The notes under the pieces were generated by a model, which did not search any database, had not been told where the DNA came from, and saw only the letters and a program-made list of their open reading frames with translations. A stretch of DNA of 64,000 nucleotides from Ignavibacteria bacterium RIFOXYB12_FULL_35_14 (lineage in GTDB: Bacteria > Bacteroidota > Ignavibacteria > Ignavibacteriales > Ignavibacteriaceae), in contig MHAR01000014.1 in the NCBI GenBank assembly GCA_001803045.1, positions 1 to 64,000 of the forward strand, written 5' to 3'. A program made the translations under genes and the position numbers. Shown in pieces: positions 24,311 to 41,033 of this stretch; the stretch's first letter is position 1; each line of letters opens with the position of its first letter.

Positions 24311-24396
24311 TGTCTTTTAAGAATTTAGTTGTATAGTAACCGCCCTTTTTTTATGTTAAACCCGAAAACATTCTTTTACTTATTATTTCGGCACAA

Positions 24397-25239
24397 TTGA
24401 AAAATTTTCTTATTGTTGAAGATGATGAATTAGCAACACCATCTGTTGGGCCTTGGGCTAAAACTAAGTACCAAATAATTTATGATTACATGGTCCTATT
24501 TTCTTCGGGGATGAAAAAACACTGGGCAAACAGAATTTACATTGATATATATGCGGGAGCGGGAAAAGCCAAAATTGAAAAAACTAATGAGATTTTGTAT
24601 TCTTCCCCAATGCTTGCTTTAAAAGTTGATGATCCATTTGATAAATACATATTTTGTGAGAAGGATAAAAAGTTATATCAAGCGCTTGAACAAAGAATTA
24701 AAAATGAGCATTTCGAAGAGAGTCATGTTATTTTTAATGGAGATTGTAACGAAATAGCAGATACTATTTTGAAGGAAATACCCCAGCATTCTCGTAAAAA
24801 TAATGTTCTAAGTTTTTGTTTTGTTGACCCGTTCTCTTTAAAAATAGAATTTGAAACTATTAAAAAGCTAAGTACAAAGTTTATGGATTTTCTTGTATTA
24901 CTTGCGTTTGGAATGGATGGCAAAAGAAATATTACTCATTACGTAAAAGACAACAATAAAAGAATAGATAAATTTTTAGGCCTTGAAGACTGGAGAAGTA
25001 GATGGGAAATCGCCAATAAAAAACATATAAATCTAGTTGAATTTCTTGCTAAAGAATTCACGCAACAGATGGTAAATCTAGGTTATCTTGAAGAGGCAAT
25101 TGACAATTTTATTGCGATACATTCTGATGAGAGGAATTTACCCTTATATTACTTAGCCTTTTATTCTAGAAATAAGATAGGATATGATTTTTGGAACAAA
25201 GTGAAAATGAGAAATACAGATCCAACATTATTTGACTAA
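24397..25239 (+). CDS. tcmP: Three-Cys-motif partner protein TcmP
   Basis: 280 residues, TTG start. The GPWAKTKYQIIYDYM, RIYIDIYAGAGKAKI and FCFVDPFSLKIEFETIKKL segments are typical of TcmP proteins, which look like degenerate Rossmann methyltransferases (IDIYAGAG at the SAM-loop position). The family is defined by constant pairing with a three-Cys DUF5131/Gp37-Gp68 protein, which is exactly the next gene (3 nt gap). Biochemical role unknown; the pair is widespread in mobile and defence-rich regions. It opens the accessory block upstream of livK. Confidence 0.85.
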   Translation: MKNFLIVEDDELATPSVGPWAKTKYQIIYDYMVLFSSGMKKHWANRIYIDIYAGAGKAKIEKTNEILYSSPMLALKVDDPFDKYIFCEKDKKLYQALEQRIKNEHFEESHVIFNGDCNEIADTILKEIPQHSRKNNVLSFCFVDPFSLKIEFETIKKLSTKFMDFLVLLAFGMDGKRNITHYVKDNNKRIDKFLGLEDWRSRWEIANKKHINLVEFLAKEFTQQMVNLGYLEEAIDNFIAIHSDERNLPLYYLAFYSRNKIGYDFWNKVKMRNTDPTLFD

Positions 25240-25242
25240 AAC

Positions 25243-25965
25243 ATGGCAAAAAATTCATCCATAGAGTGGACAGAATCTACATGGAATCCGATTACTGGAT
25301 GCACAAAGGTTAGTCCCGGCTGCAAGTTTTGTTATGCAGAACGCATGGCAAAAAGATTAAAGGCAATGGGCTCGGCTAACTATGAGAATGGATTTAAGTT
25401 AACTCTGCACGAACATGTTTTAGAACTCCCCTTGACCTGGAAAAAACCCCAGACAATCTTTGTTAATTCTATGAGCGATCTCTTTCATAAGAATGTTCCG
25501 CTTGAGTTTATTCAAAAGATGTTTGATGTAATGAACAAAGCTTACTGGCATAAATTTCAAATCCTAACAAAACGCTCCGAAAGATTATTTGAGTTTGATC
25601 CGATGCTTAGTTGGACTGATAACATTTGGATGGGAGTGAGTGTAGAAAACCAAAATTACACTTACCGAATAGACCATTTGAGATATACCAACGCAAAAGT
25701 TAAATTTATATCTATCGAACCATTGATAGGACCAATACAACATCTTGATTTGTCAAATATAAACTGGATAATTGTTGGCGGCGAATCTGGTCCCGGGGCA
25801 AGACCAATGAAAGAAGAATGGGTAGTTACTATTAGAGACGAGTGCAAGAGAGCAAAAGTACCATTCTTTTTTAAGCAATGGGGTGGAGTAAATAAAAAGA
25901 AAAACGGCAGAGTTCTAAAAGGAAGAACTTGGGAAGAAATGCCGAAACTTGGAAAGATAGTATGA
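25243..25965 (+). CDS. DUF5131/phage Gp37-Gp68 three-Cys protein (TcmP partner)
   Basis: 240 residues. The N-terminus has [16 protein letters not shown] with Cys20, Cys27 and Cys30 in [16 protein letters not shown], a radical-SAM-like CxxxxxxCxxC iron-sulphur site. [37 protein letters not shown] and [12 protein letters not shown] are family hallmarks, and the end FFFKQWGG is typical. The radical-SAM-like fold is known for the family; its substrate is not. Coupled to tcmP. Confidence 0.88.
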
Positions 25966-25997
25966 AAAATAAAAACAATATGGGGAAATAGTTTAAA

Positions 25998-26594
25998 GTG
26001 GGACACAAATGCTTCATTGCAATCAAAGCTGAAGATAAAATTTACAAAGAATATATCCAGAAAAACTTGTCTATTGATATGATTGATAAATCTTTAAATG
26101 AAGCTATTGATTCTTATGATGAAGATTATATTATGCAAAGGATACGTAAAGATTACCTATCTGATTCAACAGTAACTATTCATCTTATCGGACAATATGG
26201 CGCAGAAAATAGAGGATTTTGGGAACAAAGATATATAAAGAGAGAACTTCAAGCATCTTTATATGATGGACAGAATAATTCAAGGAGTGGAATTCTGGGT
26301 GTTGTATTACCATCAATGTATGATACTGTTTATAAAGGAAGCTATAACTGTTCAATTTGTAATCCAACTCATAGTATTTCTTTTGTAAATATAAATGATT
26401 CAAGTACAATAAAAGAATTTAGTTACAATTATTACATTCCACATAATAAATGTTCTTGGGCAGAAGAAGATAGGTATTGCGTATTGGTTAAATGGGAAGA
26501 TTTTTGTAAAAGTCCAGAGACTTATATTGATAAGGCATTTAATAAAAGAACAGATCCAATTTCAAAGAAAGTCAAGGTACGTCCAGAATTATGA
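25998..26594 (+). CDS. ThsB-like TIR protein (MTH538/DUF1863 type)
   Basis: 198 residues, GTG start, weak ribosome site. It begins HKCFIAIKAEDKIYKEYIQ and contains YLSDSTVTIHLIGQYGAENRGFWEQRYIKRELQAS followed by SGILGVVLPSMYD. This matches the TIR-like pattern of Thoeris ThsB proteins (a 'T-x-x-LIG-x-x-x...W...E' block and a GxxGI strand); Glu83 in YIKRELQ sits at the catalytic position. ThsB enzymes turn NAD into a cyclic ADP-ribose signal after phage infection. No ThsA is present; the nearby SLATT membrane protein could replace it. C-terminal Cys residues (CSICNP) are extra. Confidence 0.7.
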   Translation: MGHKCFIAIKAEDKIYKEYIQKNLSIDMIDKSLNEAIDSYDEDYIMQRIRKDYLSDSTVTIHLIGQYGAENRGFWEQRYIKRELQASLYDGQNNSRSGILGVVLPSMYDTVYKGSYNCSICNPTHSISFVNINDSSTIKEFSYNYYIPHNKCSWAEEDRYCVLVKWEDFCKSPETYIDKAFNKRTDPISKKVKVRPEL

Positions 26595-26633
26595 TAAATA
26601 ATCAACAATTATATTCTTTTTCTATACTGTAAA

Positions 26634-27137
26634 ATGAAAATCCCAATATTTATTTCTTGTCCATCTTCATTAAATAGCGATCAAGAGACCAGTAAAAAAC
26701 TAATATTAAAGGAACTAGATAAACAAGGTTTGGAACCAAGACAATTAGGTAAATCTGATTATCCAACCGAATCTCCATTAAATGAAGTTTTAAGTATTGC
26801 CAAACACTGTGCTGGAGGAATAATTTTAGGGTTCGAACAATTAAAGGTAAGTACAGGAATTAGGAAACGTGGTACAAACACTGAAACTAAGCTTAAAAAA
26901 CCCATAATTCTTCCCACTGAATGGAATCACCTGGAAGCAGGAATTTTATTTTCATTGAAATTGCCAATATTGGTTTTTAAAGAAGATGGTATAAATGGTG
27001 GTATTTTCGACTACGGAGTAACAGATGTTTTTATTCATAAAATGCCAAACAATTCATTTTCCAGAGCAGAAAAAAAAGTTTTTACCGGTATATTTCTTAA
27101 GTGGCAAAGTGATGTTCGACAAAAGTATTATAAATAA
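26634..27137 (+). CDS. TIR/SLOG-like Rossmann protein
   Basis: 167 residues. It starts with a beta-strand FISCPSS, then an alpha/beta pattern with GGIILGFEQ and PTEWNHLEAGILFSLKLPILVF. The W-N-H-x-E-A-G motif (Glu101) corresponds to the conserved Glu of TIR and nucleoside-deoxyribosyltransferase-like domains that cleave or bind NAD-like nucleotides. No membrane segment. It sits 25 nt before a SLATT gene. Small proteins of this type often pair with SLATT effectors, where they may sense or produce a nucleotide signal. Exact family uncertain. Confidence 0.5.
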   Translation: MKIPIFISCPSSLNSDQETSKKLILKELDKQGLEPRQLGKSDYPTESPLNEVLSIAKHCAGGIILGFEQLKVSTGIRKRGTNTETKLKKPIILPTEWNHLEAGILFSLKLPILVFKEDGINGGIFDYGVTDVFIHKMPNNSFSRAEKKVFTGIFLKWQSDVRQKYYK

Positions 27138-27162
27138 ATTTATAAAATAAAAGGTAAGTCAA

Positions 27163-27615
27163 ATGAATGCCGAAGAATATCTTAAAAATAGAGTGCAAGA
27201 CCAAATTGATTGGTATGATAGAAAAAGTAGTTCTAACAGGAAGATGTTTAAATCTTTACGTCTATCTGAAATAATATTATCTGCCTTAATTCCTTTTCTA
27301 AGCGGAATCACAGCAATTTTAGCTTCTTATGAAAAAGAAGGAATAATAATTATAAGTTTGTTTGGTGTTATTATTGCGTGTATGGCAGGAATACTTAGTT
27401 TGGGGCAATTCCAAGAGCATTGGATTGAATATAGAACGACAGCGGAAGGTTTAAAGAAAGAAAAATACTTGTTTCAAACTATGGTTGAACCTTACAATAA
27501 AGAAGATTCCTTTTCTATTTTTGTCCAAAAAATTGAGACTCTAGTATCGAAAGAAAATACTAATTGGTCTCAATATATGATGAAAAGAAAAGAGGGTGAT
27601 AAGAAAAATGATTAG
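27163..27615 (+). CDS. SLATT/DUF4231 two-helix membrane protein
   Basis: 150 residues; AAGGTAAGTCAA ribosome site. The N-terminal helix YLKNRVQDQIDWYDRKSSSNRKMFKSLRLSE leads into two membrane helices (about 42-62 and 66-86), then the WIEYRTTAEGLKKEKYLFQT signature and a short coiled tail. This is the DUF4231 branch of the SLATT family, predicted pore-forming effectors of nucleotide-triggered conflict systems. Placed between two TIR-type proteins, it is the likely killing arm of the set. Confidence 0.8.
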   Translation: MNAEEYLKNRVQDQIDWYDRKSSSNRKMFKSLRLSEIILSALIPFLSGITAILASYEKEGIIIISLFGVIIACMAGILSLGQFQEHWIEYRTTAEGLKKEKYLFQTMVEPYNKEDSFSIFVQKIETLVSKENTNWSQYMMKRKEGDKKND

Positions 27616-27637
27616 CTTTATTTAGTGGAGCTAAATA

Positions 27638-28180
27638 ATGGCTTATTTAACTTTTGATTACCTCAATCAAAGAAGTGGAATCCTTAAAGAAGCATTTGAA
27701 AATAGATCGATGTATAACTTCGACGACTTTGAGCAAAATAGGGTCTTTTTATCGCATAGGCATAGAGACATAGACATTGTTAAAAATGTGATAGGGTTTT
27801 TACAAGAACTTGGGGGGACAATTTATGTTGATTATTTAGATGATGTATTACCAGATAAAACCAATTTTGAAACTGCTGCCATTTTAAGAAACCGGATAGA
27901 TTCGTGTGCAAAGTTTATTCTGCTAGCCTCCCCAAATAGTAGTGAATCCAAATGGATTCCATGGGAATTAGGTATAGGTGATAGAAAGGGATTAAACAAT
28001 GTAGCGATTCTTCCTCTTGTTGAAAACAGAGATAATTGGAAAGAAAGAGAGTATTATCAAATCTATGGTTCGATTCAAATATCTCAGCAGGGTAATTGGT
28101 GTTTTTTTACACCACAAAAAAGTAAAGGTATCAAACTTACTGAATGGTTAACCAATAGTTCATTATTATTAGAAGGATAA
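27638..28180 (+). CDS. TIR-domain protein
   Basis: 180 residues; GGAG six to eight nt before the ATG. After a 30-residue lead the TIR fold is clear: RVFLSHRHRDIDIVKNVIGFLQELGGTIYVDY (first strand and helix), CAKFILLASPNSSESKWIPWELGIGDR with Glu110 in the WxxWE position used for NAD cleavage, and VAILPLV. Likely an NAD-hydrolysing or signalling enzyme. It ends 5 nt before livK and its end carries livK's AAGGAT ribosome site. Confidence 0.8.
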   Translation: MAYLTFDYLNQRSGILKEAFENRSMYNFDDFEQNRVFLSHRHRDIDIVKNVIGFLQELGGTIYVDYLDDVLPDKTNFETAAILRNRIDSCAKFILLASPNSSESKWIPWELGIGDRKGLNNVAILPLVENRDNWKEREYYQIYGSIQISQQGNWCFFTPQKSKGIKLTEWLTNSSLLLEG

Positions 28181-28185
28181 ATAAA

Positions 28186-29316
28186 ATGAAAAGAAAAATA
28201 ATTATTCCAGTAATATTCATTTTGATAATTGTAACTGTTTTAATTCTTTTCCTAAATAAAGAAAAGGTGAATACAATTACAATTGGTGCAGCAATGCCTT
28301 TATCAGGTGATGGAGCCATCTACGGAGTGCCACAGCGCAATGCTGCCGAATTGGCTATCGAAGAGATTAATGCAAAAGGTGGATTGCTAGGGCAAAAAGT
28401 TATTCTTGATGCTCAAGACGATCAAGCAAATCCTACTCTGGCAGTTAACGTAGCAAGATACTTTGTTTCTAATAAAAATGTTGTTGGTGTTATTGGTTTT
28501 CCTAATAGTGGAAATGCAATTGCTGCTGCAAAAATCTTTAATGAAAATAATATGCCTTATGTCGCCAGTTCGCCTACGAATCCGATACTGACCCAATTAG
28601 GTTATAAAAATGTATTTAGGTTTGCCCCTACAGATGATATGCAAGGAATATCGGATGCTGAATTTATTCATAATAAGCTTGGTATAAATCATTTGGTTAT
28701 TCTGAATGACAACCAAGCTTATGGTAATGGGTTGGCTACACAAGTAAAAAATCATTTTGAGAAATTAGGGGGAAAAATCTTACTCTTTGATAACATTGTT
28801 GCTGCTCAAAAAGACTATAGAAATATTTTAACAAAGGTAAAAACATTAAAACCGAAAGTTGTTTTTTTTGGTGGTATGCTCGAGGAAGGTGCAAAACTTG
28901 TAAAGCAAGCTGAGGAGATAGGGCTAAAAACGAATTTTGTTTTCGGCGATGGTTGCTTTGATGAAAAGTTTAAAGAGCTATCAGGAACAGATTGTAAAAA
29001 TGTATTCATCAGCTTTCTTGCCCCCCCTTGGGATGAAATTCCAACGGCTAAACAATTTGTTGAAAAGTATAAATCAAAGTATGGACATGATGTTCCTCCT
29101 TTTGCTCCTTATGGATACGATGCAATTTTCGTATTATCAGAAGCTATAGAAAAAAGCAAATCAATGAATAAAGGAGAAATAATAAATCAATTAAGACAAA
29201 ATAATTTTAAAACTGATGGAATTACTGGGATTATCGAATTTGATGAAAATGGTCAATCATTGAAAAAAGCTTTTTATTTTTATGGCTTTAAAGAGAACTT
29301 CCTTAAACTTTATTAG
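28186..29316 (+). CDS. livK: Branched-chain amino-acid ABC transporter substrate-binding protein
   Basis: 376 residues. N-terminal membrane anchor (5-24) without a lipobox Cys, then a type I periplasmic binding fold: ITIGAAMPLSGDGAIYGVPQRNAAELAIEEINAKGGLLGQ, VVGVIGFPNSGNAIAAAKIF, PYVASSPTNP, YGNGLATQVKNHFEKLGG, GYDAIFVLSEAIEKS. It would capture leucine/isoleucine/valine-like amino acids and deliver them to LivHM. The rest of the operon lies 5-12 kb away behind insertions: livH' 33790, livH 36133, livM 38599, livG 39518, livF 40328. Confidence 0.9.
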   Translation: MKRKIIIPVIFILIIVTVLILFLNKEKVNTITIGAAMPLSGDGAIYGVPQRNAAELAIEEINAKGGLLGQKVILDAQDDQANPTLAVNVARYFVSNKNVVGVIGFPNSGNAIAAAKIFNENNMPYVASSPTNPILTQLGYKNVFRFAPTDDMQGISDAEFIHNKLGINHLVILNDNQAYGNGLATQVKNHFEKLGGKILLFDNIVAAQKDYRNILTKVKTLKPKVVFFGGMLEEGAKLVKQAEEIGLKTNFVFGDGCFDEKFKELSGTDCKNVFISFLAPPWDEIPTAKQFVEKYKSKYGHDVPPFAPYGYDAIFVLSEAIEKSKSMNKGEIINQLRQNNFKTDGITGIIEFDENGQSLKKAFYFYGFKENFLKLY

Positions 29317-29328
29317 AGAGATAAGTAC

Positions 29329-31299
29329 GTGCCAGAAGAATCGAATTCAAATCCGGATTTAAGTAAAAAAAATTATGTTACGAATAAAGATAATCCAAAA
29401 TTTTCAAATGCAGGTCAAACTTTTGTTATTAGACCTTGGACCGACAATTCATTTATCAGTGAAGAATTTAGAAAGAAATGGGAGGAAGAATTAGGTTTAC
29501 CCCAAATTGATGAGTATAATTATTTACTTCAAGGGGAGCCTCTATATACTGAACTCATTGAAAAAATATCTAATGCCTCAATTATAATAATTGATCTGAG
29601 TTGGGGATTAACAAATGTATATTTTGAATATGGTATTGCCCTAACTCTTAAAAAACCAATAATTATTTTTAACAGAAACCAAGAACAAAATTCTAATCTG
29701 TTAAAAACTTTGCTTGATGAAATATCCAAAATGAAAGATGAGTTGTATAAAGATAAATTTACAGAGATAACAAAAAGATATTTCGGAATGGGAAGCGATG
29801 TTGCGGGTATTATTACTTTAAACAATTTTTCACAGTTGGAAAAACAAGTAACTAAAACTATCAAAAGCATTACAAAAAAGCCTCAATACAGCAGCATAAA
29901 CGAATTTCAATTAGAAGAGTATCTGAAAGTAGTACAAGAATCAAAAGAGTACGATAAAATAACTCTATATTTCAATTATATGGCTAATGATAAAATTGTT
30001 GAAGATCTTTATAATAAATATTTGGAAAAACTTATTGAAAACAATCAACTTACTATTGACAAATGTTATGTGCATTTTGAAATTGATTTAATAGATGATA
30101 ATACGTTAGCTAACTCCTCTAAAGAAATTGAAATTCCAATTTATGAAGACTTTTTTAAAAAACTTATTTATAAAGATCAATTCGATTTTTATCTAACTAT
30201 ACATAATCTAAAATGTAGGTTATTATTAATTGGTAAAGATTTCATTTTCCATTTTATTGATAATGGGCAATATATTTTTGAAAAATTGACTAATACTAAT
30301 AAAACAGATAGTCTTAGGAATATTCTAGATGGTTCTTCAGTAAGAGTAGATACTTTTACTATTTTGAAATCATTAATTAAAATAAAAGATCATCTAAACA
30401 TCAATAATATCAAAATCATTGACAAAAAGGGTTTCTCCTTTTATACTTATTCGGGTTTATGGTTTACTCCGCAAATAGATATTCTTAATTGCTTTACTAG
30501 TATTAACTCAGAAGTAGCAAAATTAAAAAACATTATTGATGATCATGTTACTTACAATTTTGAAAAGTTTTTTTTTGAATATAAGGAGCACGTTAAATTA
30601 ATCATCGCCGTTTGGCCATTATCATTTAGCAGCATTTCTTTAGGAACGAACCAGAATGTAAGGAATTGGATAAGTACGTCGAAAATATGGTATAAGAAAA
30701 AAACGACAGAAAAAACTAAAGAAAATTTAATAAGAAGATATTTTATAGTCCCACCCAAATACTCGATTCTTAATTTAGATGAAGAAAGGATAATGATCGA
30801 TATTAGTAAAAATGAAAACATGGAATATTTAAAATTAATATTGCGATTCTTTTATGATGATTTTAAGTATCAAGAATGTCCTTATCTTGATCATTGTTAT
30901 GTACTTTTACAAAGTAAAGAGTTGTTGATTGATATATTTGGTGAAGTATCGCAAATATTTGATTTAAATACTATATTATTTTCTCAAAATAATTATGATG
31001 ATTTATACCATGACAATTATTATAAACTACCAAGCAAAGGCATTATTCAAACAGAATTACCCATTCCAATAGATGCAACGCAACAAGAAATATTCAATCT
31101 ACATTATTCTTTTGTATCGCGAAATCAAAACGGAAATTTAGAAATAAAAAAGACTGTCAAACATTTAATGCAATTAGAATTATATAGATTGAGCCCTAAT
31201 AAGAAATTTGATACTTTTAATTTTATTCCTCTTGAATTATTTCTCAAAACAATAAAATCTTGTCTAGATAATAATGAAAATTTTATTTATCCAACCTAA
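29329..31299 (+). CDS. Large protein with N-terminal deoxyribosyltransferase/TIR-like domain
   Basis: 656 residues, GTG start behind TTAGAGAG, 12 nt after livK. Residues about 25-115 read as a nucleoside 2-deoxyribosyltransferase/TIR-like Rossmann domain: GQTFVIRPWTDN, LYTELIEKISNASIIIIDLSW and NVYFEYGIALTLKKPIIIF, with Glu100 at the catalytic position. Residues about 170-656 match nothing I know: mixed alpha/beta, rich in Lys, Asn, Ile and Phe, with no membrane segment. The DNA is far more AT-rich than the flanks (about 22% GC in the stretch 30001-30060). Its last 26 nt overlap the start of a radical-SAM gene, so the three genes are translationally coupled. Confidence 0.6.
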   Translation: MPEESNSNPDLSKKNYVTNKDNPKFSNAGQTFVIRPWTDNSFISEEFRKKWEEELGLPQIDEYNYLLQGEPLYTELIEKISNASIIIIDLSWGLTNVYFEYGIALTLKKPIIIFNRNQEQNSNLLKTLLDEISKMKDELYKDKFTEITKRYFGMGSDVAGIITLNNFSQLEKQVTKTIKSITKKPQYSSINEFQLEEYLKVVQESKEYDKITLYFNYMANDKIVEDLYNKYLEKLIENNQLTIDKCYVHFEIDLIDDNTLANSSKEIEIPIYEDFFKKLIYKDQFDFYLTIHNLKCRLLLIGKDFIFHFIDNGQYIFEKLTNTNKTDSLRNILDGSSVRVDTFTILKSLIKIKDHLNINNIKIIDKKGFSFYTYSGLWFTPQIDILNCFTSINSEVAKLKNIIDDHVTYNFEKFFFEYKEHVKLIIAVWPLSFSSISLGTNQNVRNWISTSKIWYKKKTTEKTKENLIRRYFIVPPKYSILNLDEERIMIDISKNENMEYLKLILRFFYDDFKYQECPYLDHCYVLLQSKELLIDIFGEVSQIFDLNTILFSQNNYDDLYHDNYYKLPSKGIIQTELPIPIDATQQEIFNLHYSFVSRNQNGNLEIKKTVKHLMQLELYRLSPNKKFDTFNFIPLELFLKTIKSCLDNNENFIYPT

Positions 31300-32734
31300 G
31301 TCTATTAATCGAGTAATTGAAAATGCAAATCATATTTATAACTTTGAACCATTAGGTATATACTACTTAGCGTCTTTAATGCTTGCAGAATATGAAATTG
31401 ATTTTTTAGATTTAATAAATGAAAGTACAGATTTAGGTGAGTCTGAGATTGTTTCAAATAAAATAAAACACTTCAATCCAGGGATAATTGTATTTTCTGC
31501 TCTCACATCAGTAAGAACATCATCAATAAATAAATCTTGTAAATTAATTAAGAATATTAATAGTGATATAATTACAATTGTTGGCGGTCCTCATGCATTT
31601 CTAATGCCAAATGATTTCAATAATGATTTTATTGATTTTTTAGTAACTAAAAATTCTATTCCTTTTTTTGTACAAATAATTTCTATGCTTTCCAAAGGAT
31701 TCTCCGTTCAACAAGTGAAAGAAACAATTACTGGTTCGTGTCTTCTGGAAAAATCAAAACTTAAGGAACTACCAATACCTCATCGAGAAATAGGTGTTAG
31801 ATATAAAAGCAAGTACTCAATTGCTATAGGTAAACCAGGTATACAGAAAATAAAGGAACCGATCAGTTCAATAAAGACATCTTCGGGTTGTCCATTCAGA
31901 TGCAATTTCTGTTGTCTATGGCAATTATATCCTAAATATGAAAAAAGGGAAGTGGATCCAATAATAGATGAATTGAAAATTATTGAAACAGATTATGTTT
32001 TTTTTGCAGATGATGAATCAATGATCGATATGAATTTTATGAATCAATTGGCTGATAAAATAATTGAGAACAATATTTCAAAAAAATATGTAATGTATTC
32101 TAGGGTTGATTCTATCGTTAGAAATGAAAAGATTATTGAAAAATGGGCTCAAGTTGGATTTACTCAAATATGGTTAGGTTTAGAAGGATGTACGGATTTA
32201 CAATTAAAAAGGTATGAAAAGAAAAATCACATTTTCGATCAAGAAAAAGCAATTAAGATAGCCAGAAAATATAATATTAGTGTTCACGCTACAGCCTTAG
32301 TCGACTATACATTTTCAAAAAGTGATTTCAATCGTATGTTGGATTATACTAAAAATCATTTAGGACTCACCTCTTGCCATTTTTTTATTTTAACACCATT
32401 CAGGGGAACAAAGTATCATAGTGAATTGATCAAATCACAACCCGAATTATTTTTAACCCACAATCCGGATCATTATTCAATTAGACAATCCGTATTAAAA
32501 CCTGAAAAAATGAGTATAGATGAATTCCATTTTGAATATGCAGAACTTCAAAGAAAATTCAATAGTGATACGATTCCATTTGAGTGTAATTCTTTTGAAA
32601 AAAAGGAATATGAAGATGAATTTAAAGAGTTAAAAAAAATGAATATGCCTCTTTATGAAAACATCTTAAATTCTCATCTAGAATATGAAACAACTTCCGC
32701 GAATAATCTGATTACTGAATATGCACTATATTGA
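31274..32734 (+). CDS. Radical-SAM protein with N-terminal B12-binding-like domain
   Basis: 486 residues. The first 170 resemble a cobalamin-binding domain of the B12-radical-SAM class (MKILFIQPKS ... PLGIYYLASLM ... IIVFSALTSVRT ... IVGGPHAFL), though the classic DxHxxG Co-ligand motif is not seen. The radical-SAM core follows with Cys206-x3-Cys210-x2-Cys213 (SGCPFRCNFC), FFADDESMID, and GLEGCTDLQLKRYEKK. It should cut SAM to a 5'-deoxyadenosyl radical; substrate unknown. It overlaps both neighbours (26 and 14 nt). Confidence 0.8.
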   Translation: MKILFIQPKSINRVIENANHIYNFEPLGIYYLASLMLAEYEIDFLDLINESTDLGESEIVSNKIKHFNPGIIVFSALTSVRTSSINKSCKLIKNINSDIITIVGGPHAFLMPNDFNNDFIDFLVTKNSIPFFVQIISMLSKGFSVQQVKETITGSCLLEKSKLKELPIPHREIGVRYKSKYSIAIGKPGIQKIKEPISSIKTSSGCPFRCNFCCLWQLYPKYEKREVDPIIDELKIIETDYVFFADDESMIDMNFMNQLADKIIENNISKKYVMYSRVDSIVRNEKIIEKWAQVGFTQIWLGLEGCTDLQLKRYEKKNHIFDQEKAIKIARKYNISVHATALVDYTFSKSDFNRMLDYTKNHLGLTSCHFFILTPFRGTKYHSELIKSQPELFLTHNPDHYSIRQSVLKPEKMSIDEFHFEYAELQRKFNSDTIPFECNSFEKKEYEDEFKELKKMNMPLYENILNSHLEYETTSANNLITEYALY

Positions 32735-33776
32735 ACATTATGAAATTCGTCAAAAATCTGAACTATTGAAAGATAAATATGAGTTTGGTTACCATGGTGG
32801 CACATTTAACGATAGTGATATTAAAGAAGCTCTAATTAAAGGTTATCCATTAACGCTTGACATTGCAATACCCGGTAAATGCTTAAATGATTGTGTCTAT
32901 TGCGGCTATTATGAAGTGAACTCAAACAACAAATTAAAATATGAAGAAATAAAAAATATTTTTAAAAATTTTGGAAAACTCGGCGGTAAAAGTATAAAGA
33001 TTTTAGGTGAAGGAGAGCCTCTTTTAAGAAAAGATATCATTTCAGTTTTAGAAGAAATCATTAATAATGGTCTTATTCCGGTTTTATTTACTTCAGGCGA
33101 TGTTCTTGGTGACGAGTCTCTCTGTACGAAAATACACGGTATCTCCAATGTTCAATTAATCCAAAAATTAAATGCGCTAAAATGTACTATAGTGATTAAA
33201 TATGAAGCTCAGGGGATTAAACAAGATTTAATAGTTAATAAGTTCGGCTATACTGAAAAACGTGATAGAGCTCTCGATCTATTAATGAGATATGGTTTTA
33301 ATGAAGAAAGAACTACTAGACTTGGATTCGGAATAGTACTTTTAAGAGATAATTACTTAGATGTTCCTTTAATATTTAATTTTGCCTTACAGCATAACAT
33401 ATATCCATTAGTCTGTCCATTGATGCCTATCGGTAAAATGAAATCTATAAATAATCGGGAATGCTTATCACCAACAAAAAATGAAATACGGGAGCTCAAA
33501 GCAAATCTTTGTAATTGTAAAAAAGCAAATGGATATGATAATTCATACGAATCTGATTTCCCGGGTGGAAAACCATGTGATATATCAAGAACTGGTTTCT
33601 ATATCGATGATATCGGCAATGCCTTTGTATGTGAATCAGATGACTTTGTTGGAAATGTGCGCGATTTTTCTTTGAAAGAAATTTGGGATCAAATCAATGT
33701 GAGAAAATGGAAAAAATATGGTAATGCAAGAAATTTAGGTTTATGTTTCCCCAAACGAAAAGCACAAATTATTTGA
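32721..33776 (+). CDS. Radical-SAM protein with SPASM-like C-terminus
   Basis: 351 residues. The radical-SAM cluster site is Cys54-x3-Cys58-x2-Cys61 (GKCLNDCVYCGYYE), followed by a GEGEPLLRKDI strand typical of the SAM-binding region. The C-terminal 100 residues have several Cys (NLCNCKKA, GGKPCDIS, AFVCESDD, LGLCFP) and FYIDDIGNAFVCESDD..GNVRDFSLKEIWD, resembling SPASM/Twitch auxiliary-cluster domains of peptide- or sugar-modifying enzymes. It is the third gene of the coupled AT-rich trio and ends 13 nt before the truncated livH. Confidence 0.8.
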   Translation: MHYIEHYEIRQKSELLKDKYEFGYHGGTFNDSDIKEALIKGYPLTLDIAIPGKCLNDCVYCGYYEVNSNNKLKYEEIKNIFKNFGKLGGKSIKILGEGEPLLRKDIISVLEEIINNGLIPVLFTSGDVLGDESLCTKIHGISNVQLIQKLNALKCTIVIKYEAQGIKQDLIVNKFGYTEKRDRALDLLMRYGFNEERTTRLGFGIVLLRDNYLDVPLIFNFALQHNIYPLVCPLMPIGKMKSINNRECLSPTKNEIRELKANLCNCKKANGYDNSYESDFPGGKPCDISRTGFYIDDIGNAFVCESDDFVGNVRDFSLKEIWDQINVRKWKKYGNARNLGLCFPKRKAQII

Positions 33777-33789
33777 TGATCATGTTATA

Positions 33790-34164
33790 ATGACAATACA
33801 ATTATTTTTCAACGGCCTCATCACTTTTTCGATCTACATTATTCTTGCCATTGGTTTTGACATCATTTATAGAGTAAATAAGTTTTTCCACTTCGCCCAC
33901 GCAGTAGTTTTCACATCCGGGGCTTACTTTACTTTTTTATTTATTCAAATATTGGGATGGTCTTATTACACAGCAATTCCTGCAGCAATACTAGTTGCAT
34001 GTTTGATTGGATGTATGACTGAATGGTTTATTTATAAGCCACTAAGGCAAAGGAAATCTTCTGCAATTGTTTTGCTGCTTGCTTCACTCGGTATTTATAT
34101 TGTTCTTCAAAACTTAATTTCGCTTTTCTTTGGGGATGATACAAAATCCATCCGCACCAGGTAA
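33790..34164 (+). pseudogene. livH: Truncated livH permease copy
   Basis: 124 residues covering only the first three or so membrane helices of LivH. It matches the intact copy at 36133 (FFHFAHAVVFT.GAYFTFLF, ASLGIYIVLQNLISLFFGD) up to IRT, then the sequence departs at about 34158 into a TAA stop and the GGATACTGG repeat. About 165 residues of the permease are missing, so it cannot form a transporter subunit. The divergence from the intact copy is too large for a recent duplication. Confidence 0.85.
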
Positions 34165-34332
34165 GCTGGATACTGGATTCTTGATACTAGAGATGGTTAC
34201 TTGTCCGCCCCTGGAGGACTGCTTGCCACTATGTGGAATACTTGATTTCAACCTTCGGTTGATAAACTGCCTGACACTATGTGGGATATTGGTAGCTGGT
34301 AGAAACCCGAGACTATAATCCAGGGACAAGCA
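34165..34332. repeat. Junction repeat block after truncated livH
   Basis: Begins with GCTGGATACTGGATTCTTGAT (first words of the CCAGTATCC family, here reversed), then an inverted pair CTTGTCCgcccCTGGA (34200-34215)/TCCAGGGACAAG (34319-34330). Between these lie two reverse-strand copies of the CCCACATAGTGGCAGG word (34221-34240 and 34267-34288) and a CAACC/GGTTG hairpin. Non-coding; the gap to abiEi also holds two operators. Confidence 0.7.
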
Positions 34333-34373
34333 ACAATTAGTTCAAAACTAAATCTTTGGTTTTTTATTGAATA

Positions 34374-34392
34374 TGTGAGTTATAATCTCACA
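34374..34392. promoter_or_regulatory. Operator candidate 1 for AbiEi
   Basis: Palindrome TGTGAGTTATAATCTCACA. A second, nearly identical site lies 74 nt downstream. AbiEi-type antitoxins are known to repress their own promoters by binding upstream repeats, which fits this placement. Confidence 0.6.
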
Positions 34393-34447
34393 ATTTCCGT
34401 ATATTGAATTATTAGGGATTTTATTTCATACTATTTTATAGTAATAT

Positions 34448-34466
34448 TGTGAGTTATAAAATCACA
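34448..34466. promoter_or_regulatory. Operator candidate 2 for AbiEi
   Basis: TGTGAGTTATAAAATCACA differs from site 1 at only two or three positions and ends 8 nt before the abiEi start, where bound protein would block transcription or translation. Confidence 0.6.
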
Positions 34467-34474
34467 TTTAAGAT

Positions 34475-35290
34475 ATGAACAAGCATATATCGTACAGATC
34501 TTCTGAGCTTCTAACTTCGCTGCTGCAAAATGGTAAATCATTTTTTACGTTGGCCGAAGCGGGTAAAATTCTTAGTAAAAGTGATCCGGCTGCAGTCCGC
34601 AGGTTAGTAAGCGATATGACAAAAAGAGGATTGATACTGAGAATAAAAGACGGACTTTATACAATAATTCCTTATGAAAAGGATGCCGAAAACTTTTGCC
34701 CCGACTGGCATCTTACTGCTGAAGCTCTTGTGCAGCCGCAAAAGTATTATATAGGATTTTACAGTGCACTGGATATACACGGCTTAATTACGCAGCCATC
34801 ATTAATCGAACAGGTTGTAACCGAAAAGCAAGTAGTTCCCAAATACAGAACAATAAAGAAAGTAAGATTTGAGTTTATAACAATGGGCAAACGTTTCTTC
34901 GGCTGCGATAAAACATGGATTGATGATTTTAATAAAGTTTATTGCAGCGATCTGGAAAAAACTATTCTAGATTGCGTGTACTTACCCGGTAAGGCAAACG
35001 GTGTTGCGGAAATTATTAAGGCAATAAATAAAAGCATAAGCAAAATAAACGAGGAAAAGCTGATAGCTTACCTCAACAAATTTGAGTCTCAAGCTGTAAC
35101 CAAAAGATTGGGATTTATTTTAGAAAACATGAATGAACTGAAAGACGTGAGAGAAAAAATAAACAATGAGATCAGCAGTTCATATACTCTATTGGATTCA
35201 TCGCTGCCTAAAAAGGGCAAGCATAATGCTCGCTGGAAGATAATAGATAATGTCGGAATTGATTCTGCACTAAAATCTGTAATGACTTAA
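34475..35290 (+). CDS. abiEi: AbiEi-family antitoxin/transcriptional repressor
   Basis: 271 residues. The N-terminal winged helix (about 8-65: SELLTSLLQNGKSFFTLAEAGKIL ... VRRLVSDMTKRGLILRIKDGLYTI) is followed by the AbiEi-type middle (YYIGFYSALDIHGLITQPS) and C-terminal antitoxin domain (DLEKTILDCVYLPGKANGV). It should bind its own promoter and neutralise the nucleotidyltransferase toxin encoded next (2 nt gap). AbiE systems are type IV toxin-antitoxins that abort phage infection. The pair is inserted between two livH copies. Confidence 0.88.
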   Translation: MNKHISYRSSELLTSLLQNGKSFFTLAEAGKILSKSDPAAVRRLVSDMTKRGLILRIKDGLYTIIPYEKDAENFCPDWHLTAEALVQPQKYYIGFYSALDIHGLITQPSLIEQVVTEKQVVPKYRTIKKVRFEFITMGKRFFGCDKTWIDDFNKVYCSDLEKTILDCVYLPGKANGVAEIIKAINKSISKINEEKLIAYLNKFESQAVTKRLGFILENMNELKDVREKINNEISSSYTLLDSSLPKKGKHNARWKIIDNVGIDSALKSVMT

Positions 35291-35292
35291 TT

Positions 35293-36108
35293 ATGATCAC
35301 ACCGGGAGAGATACAGCAAATAGCTGGCAGTTTGGGTCTCAGAGCTACCCAAATAGAAAAAGACTATATTATCGGGTGGGTATTAAAAGGAATTTCGAGC
35401 AATGAATATCTTAAGAAACGGTTGCTTTTCAAGGGAGGAACAGCTTTAAGAAAAATATATTTTCATGGTTATCGTTTATCCGAAGACCTTGATTTTACCT
35501 ATGCTGGTGATGATTACAGCACAAAAGAAATTAAAAAGCATTTTGAAGAATTAATTGTCTTATTGAAAGAAGAAGCACGGATTACTTTAAATATCCAGGA
35601 CGAAATAGTTCATCAAACCGGCAATTATAATTTCTATCTGGGTTACACAGGTCCTCTTGGCGGGACAAGAGCAAATAAAAGCATAAAAGTAGATATTGCT
35701 AATGATGAATTGCTCTGTGACGATCCGATTGAGAAAAATGTTAACAATGAATACTCTGATTTAAAAGAGGAGTTTAGTATTTTTTGTTATACGCTTGGAG
35801 AAATCATTACCGAGAAAATGAGATCCCTTATGCAAAGAACATTTCCGCGAGATGTTTATGATATCTGGTATTTGTTTGAAATAAAAAATGAAAATATTGA
35901 AGATTATGTTTTTAATTTCAATAAAAAAACGGAGTTTAAGAAATTAAATCCGCATGATTTTCTAAGCACTGTTCGAAATAAAAAAGATACATTTAAACAC
36001 CAGTGGAACGAACATTTGGTTAACCAGATAAGTGAAGTACCCGACTTTGAGGAAGTCTGGAGAGGATTAGGTAAACACTGGAGAAAATTTGAGCGTCTTC
36101 AAAAATGA
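35293..36108 (+). CDS. abiEii: AbiEii nucleotidyltransferase toxin
   Basis: 271 residues. DUF1814-type nucleotidyltransferase: an N-terminal QIEKDYIIGWVLK helix, the motif FKGGTALRKIYF, and the metal-binding SEDLDFTY. It should transfer nucleotides to an RNA target and arrest growth when AbiEi is lost. The end (DVYDIWYLFEIKN) is also typical. It stops 24 nt before the intact livH; no repeat block is seen at that junction. Confidence 0.9.
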   Translation: MITPGEIQQIAGSLGLRATQIEKDYIIGWVLKGISSNEYLKKRLLFKGGTALRKIYFHGYRLSEDLDFTYAGDDYSTKEIKKHFEELIVLLKEEARITLNIQDEIVHQTGNYNFYLGYTGPLGGTRANKSIKVDIANDELLCDDPIEKNVNNEYSDLKEEFSIFCYTLGEIITEKMRSLMQRTFPRDVYDIWYLFEIKNENIEDYVFNFNKKTEFKKLNPHDFLSTVRNKKDTFKHQWNEHLVNQISEVPDFEEVWRGLGKHWRKFERLQK

Positions 36109-36132
36109 AGCAAAGAAGATTTAGCAGTTGAA

Positions 36133-37011
36133 ATGACAAGCCAGATAATAATAAATATAATTATATCCTTCAGCATTTTTACTTTAGCTGCTATCAGCTT
36201 CTCACTCATCTACCAAACCACCCGTTTCTTCCACTTCGCTCATGCAGTAGTATTCACATTCGGTGCGTACTTTACTTTTTTATTTAGTCAATTAATTGGG
36301 TGGTCCTTAGTCTCGGCAATTCTTACAGCCATTGTTGCTGCATGTTTGATTGGTTGTATGGCTGAATGGTTTATTTATAGACCACTTCGTAAAAAAGAAT
36401 CTTCTTCTATCGTCTTACTTCTCGCCTCTCTCGGTATTTATATCGTTCTTCAAAACCTAATTTCTCTTTTCTTCGGGGACGAAACAAAATTCATCCGTAC
36501 ATGGGAAGTGCGGGAAGGGATTGAGATTGCTGGGGCGTATGTTACTCCCGTGCAAATCGTGATAATCGCGACGAGTATAGCAATCGTGATACTGGTTTCT
36601 GGATACTTGATGCTGGCAAAAACAGGGAAGGCAATGAGAGCAGTTGCAAGTGACAGCGAGCTTTCAAAATTATCAGGTATTAAAAGCGACAGGATAATTT
36701 TAATTTCGTTTGCAATCGGCTCTGCATTAGCCGGTATTGCAGGCATTCTCGTTGCGCTGGATGTTGATATGACTCCCACCATGGGAATGAACATGCTTTT
36801 AATGGGAGTAGTTGCAATGATAATCGGCGGTGTCGGCAGCATTTGGGGGATTGTTCTCGGTTCGCTTCTTCTTGCAACAGCACAAAATCTTGCTGTGTGG
36901 TACATCAGCTCCCAATGGATGGATGCAACAGCGTTTGCAATACTTCTACTGTTTCTGCTATTTAAGCCGGAAGGGTTTATGGGGAAGAAGATTCGTAGGA
37001 CGGAAGTCTGA
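36133..37011 (+). CDS. livH: Branched-chain amino-acid ABC permease LivH
   Basis: 292 residues with about eight membrane helices. Family signatures: FFHFAHAVVFTFGAYFTFLF, PLRKKESSSIVLLLASLGIYIVLQN, GKAMRAVASDSELSKLSGI (the cytoplasmic coupling loop), GSALAGIAGILVALDVDMTPTMGMNMLLMGVVAMIIGGVGS. Full length, so this is the working copy; it would pair with LivM. Upstream is the AbiE pair, downstream a repeat-flanked four-helix-bundle gene. Confidence 0.93.
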   Translation: MTSQIIINIIISFSIFTLAAISFSLIYQTTRFFHFAHAVVFTFGAYFTFLFSQLIGWSLVSAILTAIVAACLIGCMAEWFIYRPLRKKESSSIVLLLASLGIYIVLQNLISLFFGDETKFIRTWEVREGIEIAGAYVTPVQIVIIATSIAIVILVSGYLMLAKTGKAMRAVASDSELSKLSGIKSDRIILISFAIGSALAGIAGILVALDVDMTPTMGMNMLLMGVVAMIIGGVGSIWGIVLGSLLLATAQNLAVWYISSQWMDATAFAILLLFLLFKPEGFMGKKIRRTEV

Positions 37012-37110
37012 TACTGGATACTGGATACTAGATACTGAATTCTAGATATTTATCCGCCTCAGGCGGACTGGATACTTGAAATGCAATGCGGGATGCCTGA
37101 TACTGGATTC
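37012..37110. repeat. CCAGTATCC-family repeat block after livH
   Basis: Tandem-like GATACTGGATACTGGATACTAG words, then TCCGCCTCAGGCGGA (37053-37067) and GATACTGGATTCTTGATGG. TACTGGATTCTTGAT is shared exactly with the block after truncated livH. The rest of the 319-nt gap (37111-37271) is plain AT-rich sequence. Confidence 0.75.
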
Positions 37111-37271
37111 TTGATGGTTGATGAACTTAGATTTACGAACTAATAAGAACAGTGCTTCAGTTAATTTTGTAATTATTAAAATTTGAAAATCAAATGAAAA
37201 TCATTTTTTACAATATTTAATTCAGAATACAATTTAAGCTGCTATGTATGCTTTTTACTTTCCTAAGAATC

Positions 37272-37321
37272 CCGAAGCCAGTATCCAGAATCGAGTATCC
37301 AGAAACCCGATTCTTGCCTGG
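37272..37321. repeat. CCAGTATCC-family block before the four-helix gene
   Basis: GCCAGTATCCAGAATCGAG and TATCCAGAAACCCGATTCTTGCC words, opposite in orientation to the block at 37012-37110. AGAAACCCGA also occurs at about 34301 in the earlier junction block. Confidence 0.75.
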
Positions 37322-37330
37322 AGTTGAGAA

Positions 37331-37708
37331 TTGAATTATAAACAACTTGAAATTTGGCAGATAGCAAAAGAACTCGTAATTGATATTCATAAAATGACTT
37401 TGGAAAAGTTACCTAAATTCGAGATGTATAAAGAAGGCAGCCAAATTAGACGATCTTCCAAATCTATTAAATCAAATATTGTGGAAGGTTATGGAAGAAG
37501 AAACTATAAACAAGATTTTATAAAGCATTTGATAATTGCACTTGCTTCAAATGATGAGACTATTGATCATCTTGAAACCCTTTTCGAAACCAAATCTCTA
37601 ACTGATGAAAATCTCTTTAAAAATCTTTCAGTGAGATTAAATGAATTAGGAAAGAAAGTAAATAAATTTATTCAAGCTGTGGAAAAAGAACATCTAAGTA
37701 AAAAATGA
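37331..37708 (+). CDS. Four-helix-bundle protein (S23/23S rRNA intervening-sequence family)
   Basis: 125 residues, TTG start. [43 protein letters not shown] and a helical C-terminus ([19 protein letters not shown]) are diagnostic. The family forms pentameric four-helix bundles, is often encoded inside 23S rRNA intervening sequences, and is related to the Avd accessory protein of diversity-generating retroelements. Here there is no rRNA; the gene is bracketed by opposing CCAGTATCC repeat blocks, suggesting a transposable cassette. Function unknown. Confidence 0.85.
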
Positions 37709-37715
37709 TTCGAAT

Positions 37716-37765
37716 TATCCAGAATCAAATATCCAGTATCCGGTATCCGGTATCTAGTTTCCAGC
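37716..37765. repeat. CCAGTATCC-family block after the four-helix gene
   Basis: TTATCCAGAATCAAATATCC, then AGTATCCGGTATCCGGTATC and TTTCCAGCAAC. Same orientation as 37272-37321. It starts 8 nt past the stop codon of the four-helix gene. Confidence 0.75.
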
Positions 37766-37786
37766 AACAAGCCCTTGTCCGTTCAT

Positions 37787-37818
37787 ATACTAAAGTATAT
37801 ATTTATATACAAAAGTAT
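37787..37818. promoter_or_regulatory. Operator candidate for the ParE-type toxin-antitoxin pair
   Basis: ATACTAAAGTATATA (37787-37801) and TATATACAAAAGTAT (37804-37818) form a near-palindrome (12 of 15 pairs) with core GTATATATTTATATAC. It lies 52 nt before the antitoxin start, a usual place for autorepression. Confidence 0.45.
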
Positions 37819-37869
37819 ACGAAGCTTGTTGAAAGAATTAGTTAAAATTATTTATAACGCTAGGTATCA

Positions 37870-38112
37870 ATGTCAATAAATGAATTGAAGAACTTGATTC
37901 ACAATCTTGTGGATAAGTCAGAGAATAAGTACCTGCTGGAACTGATTCATAATCTCTTTTCTTTTTCTGAATCGAAAAGCGGTGAAAATCATTGGGAAAA
38001 ATTATCTGAAAGTCAAAGGGAAATGGTACTAAAAGCGTTTGAACAAAGCGAATCTGAAAGCAATTTGATGAGTCATAATTCAGTTATGTCGCAAATAAGA
38101 AATGAATTATAA
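37870..38112 (+). CDS. Putative antitoxin of a ParE/RelE pair
   Basis: 80 residues, acidic and helical (ELKNLIHNLVDKSENKYLLELIHNLF ... EKLSESQREMVLKAFEQSESE). No clear DNA-binding fold; it resembles small addiction-module antitoxins of Bacteroidota that end in a flexible toxin-binding tail. Its last 11 nt overlap the toxin start, the classic coupling of such pairs. Assignment rests on that context and on the upstream palindrome. Confidence 0.7.
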   Translation: MSINELKNLIHNLVDKSENKYLLELIHNLFSFSESKSGENHWEKLSESQREMVLKAFEQSESESNLMSHNSVMSQIRNEL

Positions 38113-38425
38113 AGTAAGCTGGACAACCATTGCTTGCTCCGATTTTTCTCAGATAGTCCAGTACATTAAAGAAACCTGGGGTAAAACATCAGCAGAAGAT
38201 TTTATTAAGCAAGTAGATTCGGTTATCAATATTCTCTCAATTTATCCGCAGCTTGGAAAAATAATTCATCAGCAAAAACAAATCAGAGCATTAGTCATCT
38301 CAAAACAAATAAGCTTAATTTATAGAATCAAATCAGGCACCATAATTATTCTTAACCTTTTTGATAACAGGCAGGAACCGGATAAACTGAAAGTAAATGA
38401 AAGCATTGGCAAATATGAGATTTAA
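38102..38425 (+). CDS. ParE/RelE-superfamily toxin
   Basis: 107 residues. YKVSWTTIACSDFSQIVQYIKETWGKTSAEDFIKQVDSVINILSIYPQLGK, then the core strands RALVISKQISLIYRIKSGTIIILNLFDNRQEPDKL, match the RelE/ParE fold. The LFDNRQ-P ending is typical of ParE-like gyrase toxins in this phylum; no RelE catalytic set is evident. Overlaps the antitoxin. Confidence 0.82.
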   Translation: MNYKVSWTTIACSDFSQIVQYIKETWGKTSAEDFIKQVDSVINILSIYPQLGKIIHQQKQIRALVISKQISLIYRIKSGTIIILNLFDNRQEPDKLKVNESIGKYEI

Positions 38426-38487
38426 AATTACTCTCCGGTTGTCATACTTTACAGAACCACTTGAAATTAGAGGTAATTACAAGTGTC

Positions 38488-38598
38488 CGGAATCCCACAT
38501 AGTGGCAGGCAGTATCCGGCATCCAGTCCCTCAGAGGCGGATAAACATCCAGTATCCAGAATCTAGCATCCAGTATCAAGTAACCAGTAACCAGTAAC
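38488..38598. repeat. CCAGTATCC-family block before livM
   Basis: CCCACATAGTGGCAGGCAG (about 38495-38513), then GTATCCGGCATCCAG, CCTCAGAGGCGGAT (38529-38542), and ATCCAGTATCCAGAATCTAG with CCAGTATCAAGTAACCAG up to the livM start. It combines three words seen in other junction blocks. Confidence 0.75.
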
Positions 38599-39528
38599 AT
38601 GGAATACCTACTTCACATATTAATTCTTATTTGTATATATATAATTCTTTCTCTTTCACTTAATCTGCTTGTTGGCTACACAGGTATACTCTCTATTGCA
38701 CACGCTGCTTTTTATGGAGTCGGAGCGTATGTTACCGCTTTAATGGCTTTAAGATTAGAAACTCCATTTTTGCTTAACATTGTACTTGCTGTCATCGCTG
38801 CCGGTGTGTTCGGTGCGGTCGTAGGTATTCCTTCATTAAGATTAAAAGATGATTACTTTGTCATTGCGACTTTCGCTTTTCAAATTATTATGTTCAGCGT
38901 TCTTAACAATTTAGTTGAGTTTACTGGAGGTCCTCTTGGTTTACCCGGAATTCCTCAGCCGAATATTTTTGGATATGAAATATCTACTCATATTGAATTC
39001 CTAATTCTTTCTTTATTGTTAGCGGGATTAGTTTATTGGGTTTCAAACCGAATTGTAAAATCACCTTTCGGAAGACTGCTTAAATCAATAAGAGAGGATG
39101 AAGTTTTTGTTAAAGCAGTTGGTAGAGATATTTCAGCAGCTAAGGTAAAAATATTTATTATCAGTGCTTCTCTGGCTTCGTTAGCGGGAGTTATTTACGC
39201 AACCTACATCACCTATATAGATCCAACCAGCTTTACAGTGATGGAATCAATCTTCATTATTTCGATAGTTATCATCGGTGGTGCAGCAAATCTAAAAGGT
39301 TCTATTCTTGGGGCAGCATTTTTAGTAGCATTGCCTGAGTTGCTGAGATTCATCGGGCTGCCGAATTCAATTGCTGCTAATGTCAGGCAAATTCTTTACG
39401 GTGCATTACTTGTTATCATGATGATGTGGAGACCGCAAGGGTTTTTAGGTGAGTATGCGTTTGGGAAGAGTTCAGAAGATAGGATACATAAGTTAGGAGA
39501 TAGAAGTAAAAGGGGAAATGATGCTTAA
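38599..39528 (+). CDS. livM: Branched-chain amino-acid ABC permease LivM
   Basis: 309 residues, eight to nine membrane helices. YIILSLSLNLLVGYTGILSIAHAAFYGVGAYVTAL, the G-IPSLRLKDDYFVIATFAFQII segment, GRLLKSIREDEVFVKAVGRDISAAKVKIF (coupling loop) and VIIGGAANLKGSILGAAFLVALPELLR are LivM hallmarks. It directly abuts a repeat block, with no clean ribosome site, so its expression may depend on read-through or on sequence supplied by the repeat. livG overlaps its end by 11 nt. Confidence 0.93.
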   Translation: MEYLLHILILICIYIILSLSLNLLVGYTGILSIAHAAFYGVGAYVTALMALRLETPFLLNIVLAVIAAGVFGAVVGIPSLRLKDDYFVIATFAFQIIMFSVLNNLVEFTGGPLGLPGIPQPNIFGYEISTHIEFLILSLLLAGLVYWVSNRIVKSPFGRLLKSIREDEVFVKAVGRDISAAKVKIFIISASLASLAGVIYATYITYIDPTSFTVMESIFIISIVIIGGAANLKGSILGAAFLVALPELLRFIGLPNSIAANVRQILYGALLVIMMMWRPQGFLGEYAFGKSSEDRIHKLGDRSKRGNDA

Positions 39529-40267: not shown

Positions 40268-40282
40268 ACAACTCTCTTACTT

Positions 40283-40305: not shown

Positions 40306-40327
40306 ATTGAGGGGTGAGTTCAAAAAG

Positions 40328-41029: not shown

Positions 41030-41033
41030 TTTC

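Follow-up and report, generated by a model that had tools for sequence, protein, structure and literature searches.

Comparable arrangements of synthesis, reception and response are known from several bacterial systems. In comQXPA and agr pherotype loci, a hypervariable cassette, made up of a synthesis enzyme and its cognate receptor, lies within a conserved operon, and pherotypes are exchanged by swapping. In Lsr (autoinducer-2) and Opp-Phr/Rap quorum sensing, an ATP-binding cassette (ABC) transporter re-imports the signal, which is sensed inside the cell. Here we describe a locus in a 64,000-nucleotide stretch of contig MHAR01000014.1 of Ignavibacteria bacterium RIFOXYB12_FULL_35_14 (the window), in which three overlapping genes (the trio) lie between livK and livH of a Liv-type importer and encode a 656-residue protein and two radical S-adenosylmethionine (SAM) enzymes. 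LivHMGF of a dedicated LivH clade forms a conserved chassis that embeds a variable binding protein, LivK, together with a payload of usually one or two enzymes and at least one response-type protein. LivK and the enzyme covary, response proteins and chassis are exchanged, and the island is mobile. We read the trio as the swappable payload of a small-molecule circuit (make, import, respond) that is polymorphic, mobile and built around an importer, a predicted function to which we assign a probability of about 55%.

The payload loci resemble comQXPA and agr in holding a hypervariable cassette of enzyme and receptor-side protein inside a conserved operon; however, the window carries no peptide pheromone gene, the receptor-side protein is the binding protein of an ABC importer, and the class of enzyme can be exchanged as well as the class of output. 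Signal import by an ABC transporter, as proposed for these loci, is shared with Lsr and Opp-Phr/Rap, but payload loci unite enzyme, importer and output in one mobile operon with exchangeable specificity and a Liv-type transporter. All five subunits of a LIV-I/HAAT importer (livKHMGF) are encoded in the window with matching Pfam families: LivK (Peripla_BP_6), two BPD_transp_2 permeases and two ABC ATPases. An ordinary liv operon was nevertheless rejected: livK is not contiguous with livH, the payload lies between them, LivH belongs to a separate clade, and LivK is decoupled from the permease rather than diverging with it. CBASS, Thoeris and related signal-effector defence systems also combine a small-molecule enzyme with an exchangeable effector such as TIR, and TIR and SLATT genes lie near the trio, but the core of the payload loci is an importer with a binding protein. 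ThsB-like proteins are present, but a scan of 19 window proteins gave no match to ThsA; no CD-NTase match was found among the window proteins scanned.

The LivH clade and its payloads

A LivH search of 247 genomes gave 48–71% identity in a few, followed by a sharp drop to 39% and below. In the LivH tree, 64 payload-type sequences group with 100/99 support, apart from 16 ordinary LivH; the exception is a long-branch control with extra genes beside livK (L043), which was placed inside the payload clade. Three genomes (G101, G210 and G247) contain both kinds of LivH. A LivH-motif scan of 84,980 species genomes yielded 70 loci from many phyla; these were picked by the motif, not by their payload, and the scan favours loci near the window's clade. 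Extra genes are embedded in all 54 nonredundant loci that have both livK and livH, between the two genes in 45 and directly upstream of livK in nine, mostly with tiny gaps or overlaps. In ordinary liv loci of the same phylum, by contrast, livK directly adjoins livH in 12 of 15 (Fisher p = 1e-6 to 1e-5, depending on how an antisense case is counted). The payload is thus a standard part of this LivH clade.

A typical payload comprises one or two biosynthetic enzymes, most commonly radical SAM, and a response-type protein that differs between loci. By the first labels, an enzyme is present in 43 of the 49 loci with near-complete LivK and LivH; later Pfam additions to the enzyme set are YcaO and nitroreductase in L064 and an EgtD-like methyltransferase in L113. 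The enzyme types include radical SAM proteins with or without a B12 domain, class-I and EgtD-type methyltransferases, class-II tRNA-synthetase-like proteins, polyprenyl synthases and SDR. Among the accompanying proteins are TIR, GGDEF, RelA_SpoT, sigma-54 activators, metallophosphoesterases, DUF4062/NPHP3 NTPase, caspase and CHASE2-cyclase, as well as many membrane proteins without a family. One sigma-54-type output family (about 700 residues) is paired with three enzyme types, a polyprenyl synthase (L065), a B12 radical SAM protein (L074) and an SDR (L100).

One four-member cluster of the membrane outputs was modelled as transmembrane helices plus a phospholipase D (PLD)-like domain, with a VIA-align Z of about 11 to phospholipase D and the TrmB ligand domain, a mean predicted local distance difference test score (pLDDT) of 54 and Foldseek E values above 0.05. 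With modest confidence, this family may be described as transmembrane helices joined to a PLD/TrmB-like domain. The HxK(x4)D motif was not found in the L067, L068 and L103 members, and an iterated hidden Markov model built from this cluster did not spread to reveal a domain shared among the membrane outputs.

The exact trio was seen in no other locus, and the other payloads yielded no relative of the 656-residue protein beyond its N-terminal domain. The first-pass annotation had looked to co-occurrence of the three genes across genomes; what recurs instead are liv loci of the same LivH clade with other payloads. Its statement that no described system has this composition agrees with the literature covered, as neither the open-access full texts nor the conflict-system papers, a scope outside which subscription papers and most preprints fall, yielded a description of such loci; the payload itself, however, is widespread in the clade. 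This kind of mobile gene island is apparently undescribed so far.

Payload loci occur in a Prevotellaceae metagenome-assembled genome (MAG) and in named Porphyromonas species (L097, L098, L102 and L103), the latter being available in cultured strains. Between P. crevioricanis and P. canoris, LivM is 96% and LivK 27% identical, and the enzymes differ (EgtD-like versus tRNA-synthetase-like). A more distant liv operon (L043 in G093, 9470–19324; LivH 38%) has a pyridoxal-phosphate-type dehydratase-like enzyme, a methyltransferase and an 1181-residue protein after livK; judging from this operon, the payload habit may extend beyond the LivH clade.

Covariation of LivK with the enzyme

A LivK that binds what the enzyme makes or uses would be expected to follow the enzyme, not the permease. 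In pairs of loci with LivM identity of 80% or more, LivK identity is 32% in payload loci (34 pairs) versus 88% in ordinary liv operons. The most extreme pairs are L063/L068 (LivM 99%, LivK 34%), L102/L103 (96% and 27%) and L040/L041, two loci in one genome (90% and 29%). In a permutation test with LivH regressed out, LivK identity correlates with enzyme similarity (r = 0.45, p = 0.0002), and the correlation is retained where the outputs are unrelated (r = 0.27, p = 0.0002), whereas LivK and output similarity give r = 0.04 (p = 0.10) where the enzymes are unrelated. For inter-phylum pairs only, with a few unassigned MAGs each taken as its own phylum, the LivK–enzyme correlation is 0.41 (p = 0.0002), and LivK identity is 52% versus 31% at equal LivH.

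Two pairs of loci separate covariation from position. L040 and L051 share the order radical SAM, X, LivK, with 48% identity for the radical SAM protein and 54% for LivK, while X is a TIR protein in one locus and a membrane protein with no relation to it in the other; L079 and L108, too, differ in the gene that separates LivK from the enzyme and retain both neighbours. Because the intervening gene is swapped in these pairs, adjacency alone is not the reason for the covariation.

The island and the trio in the window

The 17 kb island lies between a FAH-family gene (ending at 23845) and ruvA (41034). In the same-genus genome G001, from which the island is absent, these two genes are 12 bp apart, and DNA homology to G001 ends at 23803 and restarts at 41031; the two genes are also close together in several other family members. 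The closest chassis relative, in G029 (LivH 85%, LivM 84%), is on a different contig from that genome's FAH/ruvA pair, and its liv locus is followed by a diaminopimelate-epimerase-like gene. Because the island is absent in G001 and the G029 locus occupies another site, the transporter arrived with the payload, and the liv genes and payload are one mobile island. The trio was therefore not inserted into a native liv operon, as had been proposed at first; the liv genes are themselves part of the insert.

Table 1. Features of the island, with positions in the window and family matches.
Feature	Positions	Strand	Matches and remarks
Whole inserted island: conflict genes, livK, trio, truncated livH, AbiE, livH, IVS protein/ParE pair, livMGF	23846–41030	.	
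TcmP (three-Cys-motif partner), candidate defence PDC-M41A	24397–25239	+	NCBIfam TIGR04474 6e-38; PADLOC 2e-26
DUF5131, PDC-M41B	25243–25965	+	Pfam 1.5e-103; PADLOC 5e-126
ThsB-like TIR protein (a)	25998–26594	+	Pfam ThsB_TIR 3e-7; PADLOC ThsB 6e-12
167-residue protein, TIR/SLOG-like by eye only	26634–27137	+	No Pfam, PADLOC or NCBIfam match
SLATT_1 protein, two transmembrane helices	27163–27615	+	NCBIfam 6e-41
ThsB-like TIR protein (c)	27638–28180	+	PADLOC ThsB 2e-45; stops 5 nt short of livK
LivK periplasmic binding protein, variable specificity subunit	28186–29316	+	Pfam Peripla_BP_6 1e-61
656-residue protein: NDT/TIR-like N-terminal domain (about 30–170, Glu100) and about 490 orphan residues	29329–31299	+	GTG start; presumed output
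B12-binding radical SAM enzyme (HpnR/BchE-like), 486 residues	31274–32734	+	Presumed part of enzyme module
Radical SAM enzyme with SPASM-like end and MoaA-like core, 351 residues	32721–33776	+	Presumed part of enzyme module
Truncated second livH copy, 124 residues	33790–34164	+	69% identical to full copy
AbiEi antitoxin	34475–35290	+	PADLOC 7e-79; copies in L038 (75% identical) and L053 (67%)
AbiEii nucleotidyltransferase toxin	35293–36108	+	Pfam 1e-34; PADLOC 8e-81
LivH permease (chassis), payload clade	36133–37011	+	Pfam BPD_transp_2 5e-38; clade support 100/99
23S rRNA IVS-type four-helix protein	37331–37708	+	Pfam 2e-27
Small ORF (80 residues) and ParE/RelE-family toxin (107 residues)	37870–38425	+	Pfam ParE_toxin 3e-7 for second ORF
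LivM permease (chassis)	38599–39528	+	Pfam 2e-49; 84% identical in L045 and L048
LivG ATPase	39518–40267	+	Pfam ABC_tran 5e-29, BCA_ABC_TP_C 3e-10
LivF ATPase	40307–41029	+	Pfam ABC_tran 4e-33

The three open reading frames (ORFs) of the trio overlap by 26 and 14 nt and are spaced 12 nt from livK and 13 nt from the truncated livH; their GC content is 28.0%, compared with about 36% in the flanks. These overlaps and the AT-richness bear out the first-pass annotation, as does the lack of a visible precursor gene: the gaps (12, -26, -14 and 13 nt) leave no room from livK to the truncated livH for the precursor of a ribosomally synthesized and post-translationally modified peptide, although one may still lie elsewhere or in other loci. 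The second protein combines B12-binding (Pfam 2e-11) and Radical_SAM (1e-14) domains with a single C-x3-C-x2-C at residues 206–213, the architecture previously noted. Its best NCBIfam models, HpnR (2e-37) and BchE (1e-35), are far under cut-off (129 bits versus 650), and its one relative among PDB sequences, AprD4, is weak. The third has a Radical_SAM domain (Pfam 2e-10), the single C-x3-C-x2-C recognized earlier, at residues 54–61, and the SPASM-like end at a sub-threshold match (0.001); its two best relatives among 198 phylum genomes (in G073 and G210) likewise lie within liv operons. A comparison of the trio with prokaryotic viperins did not hold up, and a direct anti-phage role of that kind would be conjectural. 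The third protein matches the viperin (pVip) models weakly, over 93 N-terminal residues (E 3.5e-6), and MoaA and other SPASM models score higher.

In the 656-residue protein, Glu100 of VYFEYGIAL, placed from the outset in a nucleotide-handling domain, is invariant, together with N96 and G102, when the protein is aligned with three distant relatives of its N-terminus (four sequences in total). Pfam gave one spurious match in this region and the PADLOC TIR model a weak one (E = 0.02). Because the N-terminus resembles the nucleoside deoxyribosyltransferase (NDT)/TIR group and Glu100 is invariant in the four sequences, a nucleotide- or NAD-directed response is plausible. The C-terminal 490 residues remain orphan, as first described. 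Searches of plasmids, phages, viral contigs, 59 relatives and 296 phylum genomes gave hits to the N-terminal domain only, and the C-terminus gave nothing significant against the payloads of other loci (BLAST, phmmer and hhalign) or PDB sequences. The single-sequence AlphaFold model (pLDDT 34) was unusable.

The first reading of the trio as lying between livK and a broken livH is correct for the truncated copy, but it omitted the intact livH downstream and AbiEi/AbiEii between the two copies. The truncated copy was probably left behind as a scar when cassettes were exchanged at the 5' end of the gene, and both copies precede the same GATACTGG-type repeat. Imperfect GATACTGGATACTGG-type repeats (37012–37073 and 38521–38582; also 34150–34191 and 36991–37032) trail both livH copies and, as an inverted pair (84%), flank the module of IVS protein and ParE that separates livH from livM; they may mediate module exchange. 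Split livH genes in L104 and L114 were considered as duplicated scars of the same kind and rejected, being broken single copies. The N-terminal hydrophobic segment of the window's LivK looks like an uncleaved anchor.

From TcmP to livF the genes form one co-directional run in the order of Table 1. The trio lies beside conflict genes (TIR, SLATT, AbiE and TcmP/DUF5131), and these, with the toxin-antitoxin pairs, fit a mobile conflict island. The tandem AbiEi and AbiEii genes constitute an AbiE type IV toxin-antitoxin system. TcmP and DUF5131 (24397–25965), the PADLOC candidate PDC-M41, start the run, and DUF5131 or a remnant is also found upstream of livK in L038, L045 and L104. A recurring pair of about 345 and 265 residues, nucleotidyltransferase-like by eye, lies between livH and livM (or livM and livG) in L054, L058, L060, L064 and L072; the window has its IVS/ParE genes, and L053 its AbiE genes, in this same part of the operon. 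Modules of the toxin-antitoxin type seem to settle preferentially in these gaps. In L045/L140 (440–2302), the closest chassis relative, a 620-residue AriA/Gabija-type ATPase (PADLOC 1e-70) adjoins a livK shortened to 158 residues, and a PARIS/OLD-type defence gene may have taken over this locus or disrupted it.

The predicted circuit and its competitors

In the proposed circuit, the enzyme (here the pair of B12-binding and second radical SAM proteins) would make or modify a small molecule, LivK would bind this molecule, or a precursor of it, on the outer side of the inner membrane, and LivHMGF would import it. Import, or the molecule itself, would then switch a cytosolic or membrane output, here the 656-residue protein with its NDT/TIR-like, nucleotide-glycosidase-type N-terminal domain, and the switched output would change the cell state or stop growth. 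Swapping LivK and enzyme together would change the molecule recognized, much like pherotype switching at comQXP or agr loci, and swapping the output would change the response.

Several points weigh against this circuit. The signal molecule and the function are predictions. No other clade LivK in the comparison exceeds 35% identity to the window's LivK, which makes its cognate pairing an extrapolation. The 656-residue protein is without a full-length relative, and its role as output is presumed from its position and from an N-terminal domain with weak matches. For many outputs no family was matched, and the assignment of proteins as enzyme or output was partly manual. Furthermore, the covariation suits a LivK that binds the enzyme's substrate (import then modify) as well as one that binds its product (make then import).

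That last ambiguity carries the strongest competitor, in which LivK imports an environmental amino-acid-like compound, the embedded enzyme converts it and the output reports its presence, as sensing or scavenging with no signal for neighbours. Amino acids and amides are the usual cargo of Liv-type importers, in keeping with such a substrate. However, turnover of LivK and enzyme on near-identical chassis would be unusual for nutrient uptake, and the outputs include not catabolic genes but TIR, caspase, RelA and sigma-54 proteins; we regard this explanation as unlikely, if a serious one. Anti-phage or other abortive-infection immunity, in which the importer would take up an alarm molecule released on damage or by kin and growth would be halted by the output (TIR, NDT-like, caspase or RelA), draws on the conflict genes directly upstream of livK in the same direction in the window and L038, on the AriA/Gabija-type ATPase at that place in the sister locus L045/L140, and on the toxin-antitoxin pairs recurring within operons. 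Most outputs are not known defence effectors, though, and no relative was found in phage or viral collections, which leaves a role of this kind improbable. A mere hot spot gathering unrelated selfish or defence genes without a functional tie to the transporter would account for the toxin-antitoxin and IVS genes between livH and livM and for the AT-rich trio, but was rejected as very improbable given the full occupancy, the enzymes in most payloads, the tight overlaps and a LivK that covaries with the enzyme and not with the gene lying between.

Returning to the make-import-respond circuit, a wider proposal can be put forward tentatively, at rather less than even odds. The loci may constitute a new class of polymorphic chemical recognition system across many phyla, in which a Liv receiver chassis, a "chemical allele" of LivK and a natural-product-type enzyme, and swappable effectors (TIR, caspase, RelA, sigma-54 activator or NDT-like) would provide kin recognition or population-level immunity with many signal molecules.

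Even under the competing explanations, a binding protein decoupled from its own permease, to the extent seen in L063/L068, is a remarkable example of transporters evolving by modules. If the circuit is real, every locus would come with its own enzyme, binding protein and output, and covariation would flag the cognate pairs. The family would then lead to a large set of new small molecules (radical-SAM-, methyl-, prenyl- or YcaO-modified), the likely receptor of each being the neighbouring LivK, and amino-acid-type importers would have become receivers of a hypervariable chemical language or immune alarm.

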